In this document: in pieces, positions 2,784-7,202 of the stretch
How the letters are laid out: each line of letters begins with the position of its first letter
Numbering within the stretch: the stretch's first letter is position 1
Notes under the pieces: generated by a model
What the model was told of the DNA's origin: nothing
Seen by the model: the letters and a program-made list of their open reading frames with translations, nothing else
Databases searched by the model: none
Program-made: the position numbers and the translations under genes
Source of the DNA: Thermoproteota archaeon
Lineage (GTDB): Archaea > Korarchaeota > Korarchaeia > B14-G2
Assembly: GCA_003661385.1 (NCBI GenBank)
Contig: QMWA01000081.1
Coordinates: forward strand, 1-7,605
Direction: 5' to 3'
Length of the DNA stretch: 7,605 bases

Positions 2784-3440
2784 TCACGTGCTCACAAGCT
2801 TAGATAGCACCCTGCTCTCAGCCCCTATCTCCTCCAGGTACCTCCTAGCTTCACTCTGAACCCCCGACCTAACCACATATAAGATGTCCTGAGGGAGATC
2901 TAAGTCCAAGAGGAAGCCAACCGAGTAGTAGGCTCTGAAGTCTAGACCTAAGCTTGCTGCAAGCATCACATTCCTCGCGAAGCTAAGCTCCCCATAGAGA
3001 GGCGTAAAGCCACTTCCATACCTGATGAGAACTCCAGTAGTTCCTAGATTCTTTGATGGAGCCAAAACCAAGTCTCCTCCATAGCCTGCCACCTCTAGAA
3101 CCTCCTTAGGCGAGAGCAGGGGGAGGTCAGAGTGAACCACCAGCACTCGGCTAAACTCCCTCTCAAAGCACATGCTGATAGCCTTCTGGACAGAAGCACT
3201 TAGCCCATAACCCTCGTCATCTATCACCTTACACCCATAGCCTGCAGCCAGCTTCTTGACATATCTGTCCCTAGATACCACATAGACCCCACTTACCTCA
3301 CTACACTCCGTCAAAGCATGCAGTACATCAGCTAGCATGAGGAGAGCTAGCTTAGCCCTCTCATCAGCAGACAGCACAGCACTTAGCCTACGCTTCGCTG
3401 AACGCACCTCCTTGACCGGAACTACAGCACATAAGCTCAT
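2784..3440 (-). CDS. cofC: 2-phospho-L-lactate (or phosphoenolpyruvate) guanylyltransferase CofC
   Basis: This 218-residue nucleotidyltransferase activates 2-phospho-L-lactate or phosphoenolpyruvate with GTP, making the donor used by CofD. The glycosyltransferase-A-like fold is marked by VPVKEVRSAKRRLS (7-20, GTP-binding N-terminal loop), GYGLSASVQKA (77-87, usually GLN.A), HSDLPLLS (103-110, metal-binding aspartate), APSKNLGTTGVL (127-138), GELSF (150-154) and LDLDLPQDI (178-186), the acidic metal site. The usual methanogen GGTN motif is replaced by LGTTG. The ATG at 3438-3440 overlaps the cofD stop as ATGA. It lies behind GGGGAGG and a perfect GGAGGTGATC anti-Shine-Dalgarno complement that double as cofD codons. 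Together with cofD and cofE this leaves little doubt about the pathway; only the preferred three-carbon substrate is open. Confidence 0.94.
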   Translation of the reverse strand: MSLCAVVPVKEVRSAKRRLSAVLSADERAKLALLMLADVLHALTECSEVSGVYVVSRDRYVKKLAAGYGCKVIDDEGYGLSASVQKAISMCFEREFSRVLVVHSDLPLLSPKEVLEVAGYGGDLVLAPSKNLGTTGVLIRYGSGFTPLYGELSFARNVMLAASLGLDFRAYYSVGFLLDLDLPQDILYVVRSGVQSEARRYLEEIGAESRVLSKLVST

Positions 3441-4390
3441 CTGCCTCCCCTGATCACCTCCATCACAGCCTTAGCAAGCCTCACCTTATCTGACATAGTC
3501 TTCATCACAGTATCCTCTGCTAGAACCTTCACACCAAGCTCACACTCTATCCTAGCTGCCATATGAGAGTCCACTTTATCTAAGATGAAGTAATCTAGGA
3601 AATCCCTATACAGGCTTGCTACCCCATATGCTGTGGGCTCATAGCCTAGCGAGCGCATCATCCTGTCAGCAGGCCCCTTTATAGTCTTTCCACCGACTAT
3701 AGGGCTTATAGCGACTTTAACAGCCCTAGACCTCCTAATAGCATCCCTAACACCCTTAACTGACAGTATGGGAGCTATGCTGACAATAGGGTTGCTAGGG
3801 CACACTATAATCCCAGATGCCTCCTGAATCGACTCCAAAACCCCTGGAGCAGGCTTAGCAGTCTCTATCCCCTCAAATACAACCCCCTTAACCTCTGGCT
3901 CAGTCCTATACTTGACAAAATACTCCTGGAACTCCAGCATCCCGACATCAGTCACAAGCTTTGTACGCACCCTATCATCTGACATTGGAAGTATCCTAGC
4001 TGAGACTCCAAGCCTCCTCCTAATGAAGTCTATAGCATACGAGAGGCTAAACCCCCTCCTAAGAAGCCAAGTCCTCAAGACATGCGTAGCCAAATCCATG
4101 TCCCCAAGCTTAAACCAAGGCTTAAAGCCATATCTCTCCAACATCCTCATGAAGTTGAAGGTATCGCCTGCAAACCCCCACCCCTTTACCTCATCCACTA
4201 CACCAGCCAGCGTATAGACCACTATATCGGGGTCAGGAGATATGTAGAGCCCATACAGCTCCACATCATCTCCAGTGTTAACTATAACAGTCAGGCTACT
4301 TGGGTCAATAACCCTAACAAGCCCCTGCAGAAACCTAGCTGCACCCACACCCCCAGCTAACGCAACAACCCCATCAGCACCACGTGTCAA
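3437..4390 (-). CDS. cofD: 2-phospho-L-lactate transferase CofD (FO to F420-0)
   Basis: CofD moves the phospholactate (or phosphoenolpyruvate-derived) group from its GDP-linked donor to the deazaflavin FO, giving F420-0 or dehydro-F420-0. With the start chosen here it has 317 residues, close to the family's usual length. Motifs are ALAGGVGAARFLQGL (10-24), VNTGDD (37-42), LPMSDDRVRT (134-143), CPSNPIVSIAPIL (197-209) and SPIVGGKTIKGPADRMM (229-245). The frame extends upstream to 4453, but that would overlap the nitroreductase by 80 bp and add a non-family arginine/leucine-rich leader. TTG at 4388-4390 sits 7 bases after GGGAGGTG and puts the GG-G motif at the normal distance from the N-terminus. 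It therefore overlaps the upstream gene by 17 bp. The 3' end overlaps cofC by four bases. Confidence 0.95.
   Translation of the reverse strand: MTRGADGVVALAGGVGAARFLQGLVRVIDPSSLTVIVNTGDDVELYGLYISPDPDIVVYTLAGVVDEVKGWGFAGDTFNFMRMLERYGFKPWFKLGDMDLATHVLRTWLLRRGFSLSYAIDFIRRRLGVSARILPMSDDRVRTKLVTDVGMLEFQEYFVKYRTEPEVKGVVFEGIETAKPAPGVLESIQEASGIIVCPSNPIVSIAPILSVKGVRDAIRRSRAVKVAISPIVGGKTIKGPADRMMRSLGYEPTAYGVASLYRDFLDYFILDKVDSHMAARIECELGVKVLAEDTVMKTMSDKVRLAKAVMEVIRGGR
3444..3461 (-). promoter_or_regulatory. Double Shine-Dalgarno element before cofC
   Basis: The minus strand carries GGAGGTGATC (3452-3461), an exact complement of the usual archaeal 16S 3' tail. GGGGAGG (3444-3450) follows, ending three bases before the cofC ATG. 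Both lie in the cofD C-terminal codons, so ribosomes ending cofD can restart on cofC. Confidence 0.7.
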
Positions 4391-4988
4391 ACCTAAGCAC
4401 CTCCCTAAGAGGCTTCCTAGGAGGCTTCTCAGGCTTCTCAGCAGGAACACCAAGCGTAATCAAAGCCTGAGGCTCGAAGTCATCTGGAAGCCTCAGCACA
4501 CACCTCACCTCCTCAGGAGCAAACAATGGAGCACACATCCAGCATGCACCAAGCCCCTCAGCCTCAGCAGCTATAAGCAAGTTCTCAATAGCAGCAGCAA
4601 CACTCTGAACAGCCATCAGAAACTCAGCCCTACTCCTCCTCTCATCAGGATAACGGTCCATATCCCTCATGGTCAGCGCCACCACTATGACAACAGGAGC
4701 CCCAGTAATCCTCTTAACAGACTCCTCAACCATAGCTCTAGCCCTATCAGCTGGAACCCCATCCCCAACAAGATCCCTAAGCCAACGCTCACCCATCAGC
4801 CTAGCAAGCCTCTCCTTAACCCCCCTACTAAAAACAGCAACAAACCTCCAAGGCTGAGCATTATGAGCAGAAGGCGCCCAAGTAGCAGCCTCAACCAGCC
4901 GCTCAACCACATCCCGCCCCACCTCCCCACCAGCATACCACCTAACAGAAGCACGCCTCCTCAACACAGAATACACCAGCCCCCTCAT
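4374..4988 (-). CDS. FMN-dependent nitroreductase, FbiB C-terminal-domain type (putative dehydro-F420 reductase)
   Basis: The 204-residue protein is a nitroreductase-family flavoprotein. RRRASVRWYA (10-19) and APSAHNAQPWRF (38-49) are the FMN phosphate and ring-binding segments, and GLGACWMCAPLF (145-156) is the late FMN loop. The stretch GERWLRDLVGDGVPADR (66-82), plus the RYPDE and DFEP.A...LG positions, recalls the C-terminal domain of mycobacterial FbiB. That domain reduces dehydro-F420-0 to F420-0 when phosphoenolpyruvate is the three-carbon donor. Here the domain stands alone and overlaps cofD by 17 bp, first in the F420 operon. The start is ATG 4986-4988, preceded by AGGTGG; the frame runs further to 5111, but that part is a tryptophan/cysteine-rich product of skewed composition. 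Family and cofactor are firm; the specific reaction is inferred from resemblance and context. A general NAD(P)H nitroreductase is the alternative. Confidence 0.88.
   Translation of the reverse strand: MRGLVYSVLRRRASVRWYAGGEVGRDVVERLVEAATWAPSAHNAQPWRFVAVFSRGVKERLARLMGERWLRDLVGDGVPADRARAMVEESVKRITGAPVVIVVALTMRDMDRYPDERRSRAEFLMAVQSVAAAIENLLIAAEAEGLGACWMCAPLFAPEEVRCVLRLPDDFEPQALITLGVPAEKPEKPPRKPLREVLRFDTWC
4398..4405 (-). promoter_or_regulatory. Ribosome binding site fixing the cofD TTG start
   Basis: On the minus strand this reads GGGAGGTG, seven bases before TTG at 4388-4390. It lies inside the nitroreductase 3' end and is the main reason for preferring the TTG over the far-upstream start. Confidence 0.75.
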
Positions 4989-5306: not shown

Positions 5307-5969
5307 CTAAAGAAGATGCTCAGAGCCTCTAGCAGACACAGCTAAGACCTCCCTGACATCGAGGACAGCTGGCAGAGGCCTCCTGCTTAAGGCAAGCTCC
5401 TCCAGCCTCTTCTCCTCCTTTATCAGCTGCCCTAGCTTGCCCTCCCACCTCCCATACCCTGCTCTCCAGGCCTCAAGGGCCTCACCTGGATCTCTAAGCC
5501 AGATCCTCAAGGCTTCCAGCGCAACCCTACACCTCAGCCTGTAGCCATACGCTATGAAAACAGGCTCCCAACCAAACCTCCCCAGGAGTTCCTCCAGGTA
5601 CTTTAGGAGCTCCCTAGCATCCTCCTCTCCAGCCTCAAGCTCACCCCTAACAACCCTGCCAGCAGCCTCCAGAGCTGGGTCAGCTCTCCTCATGTAGGCT
5701 ATGAGCCTGCGCAGCTCCTCCTCGCTGTCCTCCAAGACCCCCTCTACAACAGCACAGATGACCTTAGGCTCCTCTGCTATCTTCGGCAGCTCAAGCTCCA
5801 GCCAGCCTCCACCCAAAGCACACACCTCACATGCAGCTTCAAACAGCAGATGCCCAAGACCAGCAGCCCAACCTAGATATAAGCGTTGGATTCCCTCCTG
5901 CTTCAGCTCCTCTAGATCTGCTAGCGCTCCCTCGACTACATCCCTGTCTGCTAGCTTACAGCCATGCAC
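5307..5969 (-). CDS. Hypothetical protein, predicted mostly alpha-helical
   Basis: I do not recognise this 220-residue protein. It is rich in Glu, Leu, Ala and Arg and reads as a soluble, mainly helical protein, with likely helices around residues 10-25, 80-95, 112-130 and 150-195. A cysteine/glycine patch (CEVCALGGG) lies near residues 47-55. There is no signal peptide or membrane segment. The only in-frame start after an upstream stop is GTG at 5967-5969, which has no properly spaced ribosome binding site. A different reading frame from upstream ends 14 bases inside this gene. That pattern fits either reinitiation after a small partner gene or a frameshift that has cut off the true N-terminus. 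Codon choice resembles the neighbouring minus-strand genes, which supports it being coding. Confidence 0.6.
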   Translation of the reverse strand: MHGCKLADRDVVEGALADLEELKQEGIQRLYLGWAAGLGHLLFEAACEVCALGGGWLELELPKIAEEPKVICAVVEGVLEDSEEELRRLIAYMRRADPALEAAGRVVRGELEAGEEDARELLKYLEELLGRFGWEPVFIAYGYRLRCRVALEALRIWLRDPGEALEAWRAGYGRWEGKLGQLIKEEKRLEELALSRRPLPAVLDVREVLAVSARGSEHLL

Positions 5970-6444: not shown

Positions 6445-6507
6445 ATGTACAGGCCTGATGTGATAAAGCAGAACCCATGGTGGGCTGACTCTCCCAAGCT
6501 AAGCTGA
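6445..6507 (+). pseudogene. N-terminal remnant of an archaeal AAA-type ATPase gene
   Basis: The frame encodes MYRPDVIKQNPWWADSPKLS and then a TGA, 20 residues in all. The QNPWW motif shortly after the start codon is characteristic of a large family of archaeal P-loop ATPases (often with a C-terminal DUF4143-type domain), which normally run about 400 residues. Nothing resembling the Walker A motif or later domains follows; the frame stops and runs into the convergent vapC, overlapping its end by 9 bp. The upstream promoter and start region look intact, with an in-frame GTG at 6436 as an alternative start. This fits replacement or deletion of the gene body at the toxin gene boundary. The resemblance rests on a short motif recalled from memory, so confidence is moderate. 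Confidence 0.5.
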
Positions 6508-6930
6508 TTCACCATGTTTTCTGACATAGTCTTCTAAGAACAGAATGTCAACATCGAAGGGCTTCCTCTCAATCTCCCTAACAAGCTCTTTTTCTCTCCT
6601 TGCGAATAGCACGGGCATCGACAAGTACTCTCCTAGCGCTATCGAAAAGCAGTCTGGAAGTGAGATCGCTCGCTCACACTTGTACTCTGAAGCCAGTGTA
6701 ACTATGGGTGAGATTTCTTCAACACGAAAATACCCTGAGGCAAGAAGCTTATCAACCCTCCTCCACGCCTCATCTCTCCCAAGCATCCTACAAACCACAT
6801 ACCTAAGCTCCGATACAGCCAGCTCAGTCACATACCCAAACAGCACCTCATCAACCAGCATACGCCTGACTAACCGGCCTCCCACCGTCGAGAAGATAAC
6901 CTCCACCAGGACACTTGCATCAAAAACCAT
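6499..6930 (-). CDS. vapC: PIN-domain ribonuclease toxin VapC
   Basis: This 143-residue protein is a PIN-domain nuclease, the toxin of a type II toxin-antitoxin pair; such toxins cut RNA, often tRNA or rRNA, using metal held by clustered acidic residues. Visible ones are Asp4 in MVFDASVLVE, Glu41 in AVSELRYV and Asp93 in LPDCFSIALGE. The segment VLFARREKEL (107-116) matches the C-terminal strand of archaeal VapC proteins, where Glu113 takes the place of the last acidic residue. The ATG at 6928-6930 is preferred because it begins at the first PIN strand, follows AAGGAG, and overlaps the antitoxin stop by 11 bp. The frame runs open to 7020, inside the antitoxin gene. RNA target unknown. Confidence 0.88.
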   Translation of the reverse strand: MVFDASVLVEVIFSTVGGRLVRRMLVDEVLFGYVTELAVSELRYVVCRMLGRDEAWRRVDKLLASGYFRVEEISPIVTLASEYKCERAISLPDCFSIALGEYLSMPVLFARREKELVREIERKPFDVDILFLEDYVRKHGESA

Positions 6931-7171
6931 ATCTCCTTCTAGCTCTCTCCTCATCCCCAGCCCTCTCAGAGTAAAGCACCCTAAGAGCCTCCTCACCATC
7001 ACCCTCAACACAAGCCTCAAAAAGCAAATTAGGCCTCCTAACCCTAACCTCCCTAAGCAGAAAGCTTATAGCCATGTCTAAACTAACCTTCCTCCCAAGC
7101 TTAGCTTGAAGCTCAGCAGCATACCTAACAAGCTCCCTCTTAACAGCCTCAGAAACCCTAATCACAGCCAC
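6920..7171 (-). CDS. vapB: VapB-type antitoxin
   Basis: The 83-residue product begins MAVIRVSEAVKRELVRYAAE and continues with LGRKVSLDMAISFLL. This is the strand-helix-helix pattern of the ribbon-helix-helix DNA-binding domain of archaeal VapB antitoxins. The charged C-terminal part (FEACVEGDGEEALRVLYSER) is expected to wrap the VapC active site. The frame extends to a TTG at 7192, but GTG at 7169-7171 is better. It has GGGGAG five bases upstream and gives the normal family N-terminus, while the TATA box at 7203-7212 puts transcription start near 7182, downstream of the TTG. Like other pairs of this type, it probably represses its own promoter together with VapC; no clear operator palindrome was seen. 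Confidence 0.85.
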   Translation of the reverse strand: MAVIRVSEAVKRELVRYAAELQAKLGRKVSLDMAISFLLREVRVRRPNLLFEACVEGDGEEALRVLYSERAGDEERARRRYGF

Positions 7172-7202
7172 ACCAGCTCCCCTATCATACAAAATCTACA
7201 TT

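Follow-up and report, generated by a model that had tools for sequence, protein, structure and literature searches.

When the F420 pathway was revised in 2019, the archaeal enzyme that would reduce dehydro-F420 was not settled (PMC6450877), and the locus analyzed here raises the question of whether a stand-alone nitroreductase encoded next to cofD is a candidate for this step. The window is the whole stretch of DNA analyzed, 7,605 nucleotides, and is contig C81 of the draft genome of an uncultured archaeon (G000; 1.74 Mb, 206 contigs, 91% complete). It carries a minus-strand operon in the order nitroreductase, cofD, cofC, ECF S component, and cofE. The initial annotation had described an FbiB-like reductase at the head of this operon, overlapping cofD and separate from the ligase gene, and had suggested that the split arrangement possibly preceded fusion.

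The gene order places the nitroreductase (4374–4988, ATG start, 204 aa) first, as proposed, and ORF coordinates confirmed that its 3' end overlaps the 5' end of cofD (3437–4390) by 17 bp (4374–4390): cofD starts with TTG at 4390, and the reductase stop codon ends at 4374. The overlap cannot be shorter than this because this TTG is the last possible start upstream of the conserved GGVGAARF motif. The cofD product, an FO transferase for 2-phospho-L-lactate (2-PL) or phosphoenolpyruvate (PEP), scored 342.1 bits against TIGR01819 (cut-off 257.45). It is followed, with a 4-bp overlap, by cofC (2784–3440), a guanylyltransferase of the 2-PL/PEP type (TIGR03552, 147.2 bits, cut-off 105). After a gap of 58 bp comes the gene for a RibU-like ECF-type S component (2225–2725), which overlaps by 4 bp the gene for a single-domain F420-0:glutamate ligase, cofE (1455–2228; TIGR01916, 187.9 bits, cut-off 180.65). 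CofD, CofC, and CofE thus all exceed their NCBIfam equivalog cut-offs. The reductase and cofD together cover 3437–4988, and the operon extends to 1455, with ligase and reductase as separate genes, as had been described. On the plus strand (1–1487), two genes of tetrahydromethanopterin synthesis run towards cofE: one for a pterin-binding (dihydropteroate-synthase-like) protein and MptA, whose 3' end overlaps that of cofE by 33 bp. Elsewhere on the minus strand are a 220-aa ORF without a Pfam or NCBIfam match (5307–5969) and a PIN-domain protein behind an overlapping 90-aa ORF (6499–7192); these last two resemble a VapBC-type toxin-antitoxin pair.

The reductase scored 111.6 bits against the nitroreductase family PF00881 (cut-off 23.5), and its top NCBIfam matches were FbiB (PRK13294, 140.4 bits) and the FbiB C-terminal domain (TIGR03553, 132.7 bits), followed by BluB (89.9 bits). 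Both FbiB scores lie below the equivalog cut-offs (304 and 249.55, respectively), and CofE and the reductase do not form one polypeptide as in bifunctional FbiB. The TIGR03553 cut-off was also unreached in every Asgard genome searched, so what this model describes is the fused actinobacterial protein and not the family at large; for this reason we class the window protein as FbiE, as that name is used in PMC8498797, instead of as FbiB. The best sequence match in the PDB was the C-terminal domain of M. tuberculosis FbiB (4xom, E 2.4e-28; next match 7.3e-23), and the segment GERWLRDLVGDGVPADR aligns with DKWRSDLTSDGLPADA of that protein. An AlphaFold model built from 40 homologues had a pLDDT of 96.2. 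Foldseek ranked eight FbiB chains first for this model (best E 3e-18), and VIA-align against the FMN-bound FbiB C-terminal domain (4xoo) gave a Z of 25.1 over 200 residues at 33% identity, compared with 22.9 for the next protein. The PF00881 score and the match to the FMN-bound structure both assign it the FMN-dependent nitroreductase fold.

The 84 rows of a maximum-likelihood tree included generic archaeal nitroreductases, of which two came from the window's own genome. The FbiB-C/FbiE clade was split from the generic nitroreductases with 99/97 support, and the window protein grouped with FbiB-C and T. roseum FbiE, not among the generic enzymes, the position that would have contradicted the initial annotation. 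The tree, the profiles, the PDB match, and the fold therefore bear out the FbiB-like assignment, and the window reductase adds a member to a family already known. Within the clade, the stand-alone proteins of Bathyarchaeia, the window's phylum, Asgard archaea, and Nezhaarchaeota are paraphyletic, and those of Chloroflexota and some Proteobacteria form one clade (96/94), on whose side the window protein lies with weak support (81/90). The actinobacterial FbiB domains nest next to Asgard stand-alone proteins (99/85), and the Lokiarchaeal fusions sit in another Asgard/Nezhaarchaeota group (95/94). Stand-alone forms thus surround both fusion groups, and on the sequences compared, a history of separate genes that were later fused would fit the tree; fusion may perhaps have happened twice, once in actinobacterial FbiB and once in the Lokiarchaeal CofE-reductase. 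This part of the proposed ancestral arrangement stands, but a single clade for FbiB and the Lokiarchaeal fusions was not rejected by the AU test (p 0.138), although the best tree separates them. Two members of the clade on betaproteobacterial plasmids (L128:2860-3600 and L129:2878-3579) lie outside any F420 cluster and adjoin genes for FAD-dependent oxidoreductases, and other activities may thus exist within the clade.

The initial annotation overstated its point insofar as the gene is not a lone archaeal case. A scan of genome contigs returned 332 relatives of the reductase, and the best 80 of these belonged to archaea (Bathyarchaeota, Hermod- and Nezhaarchaeota, and Thermoprotei MAGs), Chloroflexota, and a few Alphaproteobacteria. 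The archaeal relatives are 43–58% identical to the window's protein and adjoin cofD, and relatives lie immediately upstream of cofD in Bathyarchaeia, Asgard archaea, and Chloroflexota. Archaeal loci usually run reductase-cofD(-cofC), in many cases with genes overlapping by 4 bp, and those of Chloroflexota run cofE-reductase-cofD-cofC; in T. roseum, too, a clade member lies inside a cofD-cofC cluster. Across 80 genomes, cofD was present in all 28 with the reductase and in 15 of the 52 without it (p 6e-11, a value inflated by shared ancestry). In the window's phylum, cofD was confined to the two reductase-bearing genomes; among Asgard genomes lacking the reductase, it was still found in 15 of 26, and the methanogen controls had cofD and no reductase match at the threshold used. 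Bashiri et al. (2019) surveyed about 1,000 archaeal cofE neighbourhoods and reported no close FbiB-C homologue except the Lokiarchaeum fusion (PMC6450877). The archaeal reductases may have been missed there because they lie mostly by cofD and the search was made around cofE. Independent FbiE homologues in several archaeal F420 producers are already mentioned in a 2021 review, which cites Braga et al. 2020 (PMC8498797).

Several positions are conserved across the clade and absent from generic nitroreductases, including H42, R48, M65, D72, D76-G77, Y113, D115, R118, E122, and M125 of the window protein, which are equivalent to H290, R296, M313, D320, D324-G325, Y360, D362, R365, E369, and M372 of FbiB. 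In the docking model of FbiB, the enolpyruvyl methylene lies between M372 and P289, and the carboxylate is held by R337 (PMC6450877). M372 is kept in the window protein as M125, P289 is replaced by A41, and R337 by E89. Most of the clade has alanine at the P289 position; the T. roseum protein has proline there and glycine at the R337 position, so R337 is probably not essential. That stand-alone protein, presumably WP_012643075.1, reportedly reduces dehydro-F420 (Braga et al. 2020, cited in PMC8498797).

The substrate of the first steps was considered from CofC and CofD. The alignment to FbiD showed PEP/2-PL-type residues in the window CofC, and a 3-phosphoglycerate route was rejected since the diagnostic position of CofC is glycine, as in the 2-PL/PEP type, and not serine. 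In CofD, the metal-ligand aspartates of FbiA are conserved, and the protein scores slightly higher with M. mazei CofD (225.6 bits) than with FbiA (199.6 bits), a comparison that is uninformative as a discriminator between PEP and 2-PL. CofC assays likewise cannot separate 2-PL from PEP as the in vivo substrate (PMC8764529). We consider it likely, in line with the initial annotation, that the protein is an FbiE-type, FMN-dependent dehydro-F420-0 reductase and that it acts in a PEP route; family, fold, and active-site positions were computed, and substrate and reaction are inferred. In this route, CofC would activate PEP with GTP, CofD would transfer the activated PEP to FO to give dehydro-F420-0, the reductase with FMNH2 would reduce the enolpyruvyl group between the CofD and CofE steps, and the single-domain CofE would add the glutamates.

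Such a route also depends on FO, and whole-genome profile searches with positive controls detected no CofH at 1e-5 and no CofG at 1e-10 in the 91% complete draft, so a complete de novo pathway (with CofG/CofH or FbiC) was not found in this genome and, without a detectable FO synthase, the route cannot start from scratch. CofG exceeded its cut-off in only 2 of 43 archaea with a stand-alone reductase and 1 of 16 Chloroflexota (nearly all were negative, Anaerolineae included), compared with 6 of 7 genomes with the Lokiarchaeal fusion and 3 of 3 Alphaproteobacteria. No CofG over the cut-off was found in the single-contig Asgard genome G038 or in the chromosome records CP070759 and CP070708, and CP070759 also lacked CofH, so incompleteness is not the general cause of the missing FO synthase. 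Lumazine (DMRL) synthase was undetected in 37 of 40 genomes tested, including the window's. The two losses agree, because FO is made from a riboflavin-pathway intermediate (PMC8498797), and they suggest that many members of the Bathyarchaeia, Asgard archaea, and Anaerolineae with cofC and cofD are riboflavin-dependent.

The small membrane protein of the operon is a candidate FO/flavin importer; like the missing FO synthase, it had been overlooked in the initial annotation. It scores above the Pfam threshold for the riboflavin-type ECF S family (PF07155, 30.9 bits, cut-off 26.7), and its model, built from four sequences only, had a pLDDT of 81.5. RibU filled the first five Foldseek ranks, and in VIA-align the thiamin and pantothenate S components scored nearly as high as RibU. 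At 11 of about 31 archaeal loci, an ECF-S-like membrane gene is found no more than about 120 bp from either the reductase or cofC; six of the S-like genes near these loci exceed a Pfam cut-off, and the others are weaker or unassigned. At two Chloroflexota loci, one of them in T. roseum, an EamA/DMT transporter lies beside the FbiE gene (L124:4912-5868 and L063:4063-4956); the riboflavin importer RibN belongs to the same superfamily. FO is said to diffuse through membranes (PMC8498797), so scavenging it would not even need a transporter. Whether FO is of external origin, arriving by diffusion or with the help of the RibU-like S component, seems to us evenly balanced; the S component possibly imports plain riboflavin. 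We give about equal weight for and against the wider proposal of an FO-salvage operon, in which lineages ranging from the relatives of this archaeon through Bathyarchaeia and Odinarchaeia to Anaerolineae would take up FO that their neighbours release and trap it as F420 through PEP, CofC/CofD, FbiE, and CofE, with a RibU-type S component beside the reductase in many of the archaea. No report of FO uptake or of F420 producers lacking FO synthase was found in the open-access literature, and as far as the literature searched shows, an operon of this kind with a RibU-like component and no FO synthase is an undescribed variant.

The genomes appear equipped to use F420. FrhB-like proteins occur in 35 of 40 of them, and F420:NADP oxidoreductase exceeds its cut-off in many that lack FO synthase; it was not found over the cut-off in the window's genome. 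That genome has one FrhB over the curated cut-off for the F420-reducing hydrogenase beta subunit (276.1 vs 269). It is encoded beside NuoD/NuoB-like genes, prenyl-lipid genes, and a Nuo/Fpo-type gene cluster (G000:C1:32181-48614; L185, L186), a region that possibly encodes an F420H2-oxidising complex. Of 67 CofD positions that never vary across the remaining genomes, FbiA, and M. mazei CofD, 54 are kept in the genomes without FO synthase, with conservative changes at the rest, and judged from their residues these CofD proteins give no sign of another head group.

Other explanations bear on either the reductase or the source of FO. One is that the gene neighbours cofD by chance and encodes a BluB-like enzyme or a generic NAD(P)H nitroreductase. 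Such enzymes belong to the same superfamily, and the BluB model did score 89.9 bits; however, the 99/97 split in the tree, the first rank of FbiB in all searches, and the conserved linkage to cofD leave this hardly credible, and on the tree and profile scores such an identity was rejected. The archaeon could instead follow the 2-PL pathway as proposed for methanogens, with the reductase as a side or repair enzyme for dehydro-F420 formed by mistaken use of PEP. CofC enzymes in general turn over 2-PL better than PEP in vitro, archaeal CofC/CofD pairs assayed elsewhere preferred 2-PL (PMC8764529), and the presence of cofD in reductase-negative Asgard genomes would agree with this. Overlap with and position ahead of cofD, co-occurrence in 28 of 28 positives, and fusion to the ligase in two lineages are more than a repair enzyme would predict, and we regard this explanation as improbable.

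With the PEP route as the preferred reading of the reductase, the source of FO can be weighed separately. There may be no salvage at all: the FO synthase could lie in the unassembled ~9% of the genome, and the S component could import riboflavin alone, which would be needed anyway given the undetected lumazine synthase; the role of the reductase would be unchanged. This is possible but rather doubtful, since 41 of the 43 archaea tested that have a stand-alone reductase lack FO synthase, as do 15 of the 16 Chloroflexota, with G038, CP070759, and CP070708 among the genomes lacking it, and without the riboflavin pathway the FO precursor is missing too. The absence of CofG/CofH and the riboflavin-type S component would also suit an F420 analogue with another head group, such as riboflavin. 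The conserved CofD positions and the FrhB and F420:NADP oxidoreductase families over cut-off in these genomes argue against an analogue, which we consider very unlikely.

The cofD-adjacent genes offer a directly testable candidate for the archaeal dehydro-F420 reductase, and because FO synthase is missing and the operon encodes a flavin-type transporter component, it can be tested whether F420 in these lineages depends on FO exchanged among microbes. If FO salvage occurs, F420 would be a shared, vitamin-like compound in anaerobic communities.

Among known systems, the C-terminal domain of M. tuberculosis FbiB (4XOM, 4XOO, 4XOQ) shares the full-length fold and the DG and Y.D..R...E..M motifs with the window protein; FbiB is fused to the ligase and exceeds the TIGR03553 cut-off, whereas the window protein is stand-alone, falls under it, and differs at P289 and R337. 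T. roseum FbiE is likewise a stand-alone nitroreductase of the same clade in a cofD-cofC cluster and keeps the M372 position, but it is bacterial and distant (long branch), retains P289 with glycine at R337, and its cluster has an EamA/DMT transporter where the window operon has the ECF S component. The Lokiarchaeal CofE-nitroreductase fusion (PMC6450877) belongs to the same clade and lies immediately upstream of cofD; unlike the window protein, it is joined to CofE, and 6 of 7 of these genomes have CofG. RibU (5KBW, 3P5N) has the same fold as the small membrane protein of the operon, which is only about 17% identical to it and is encoded within an F420 operon.
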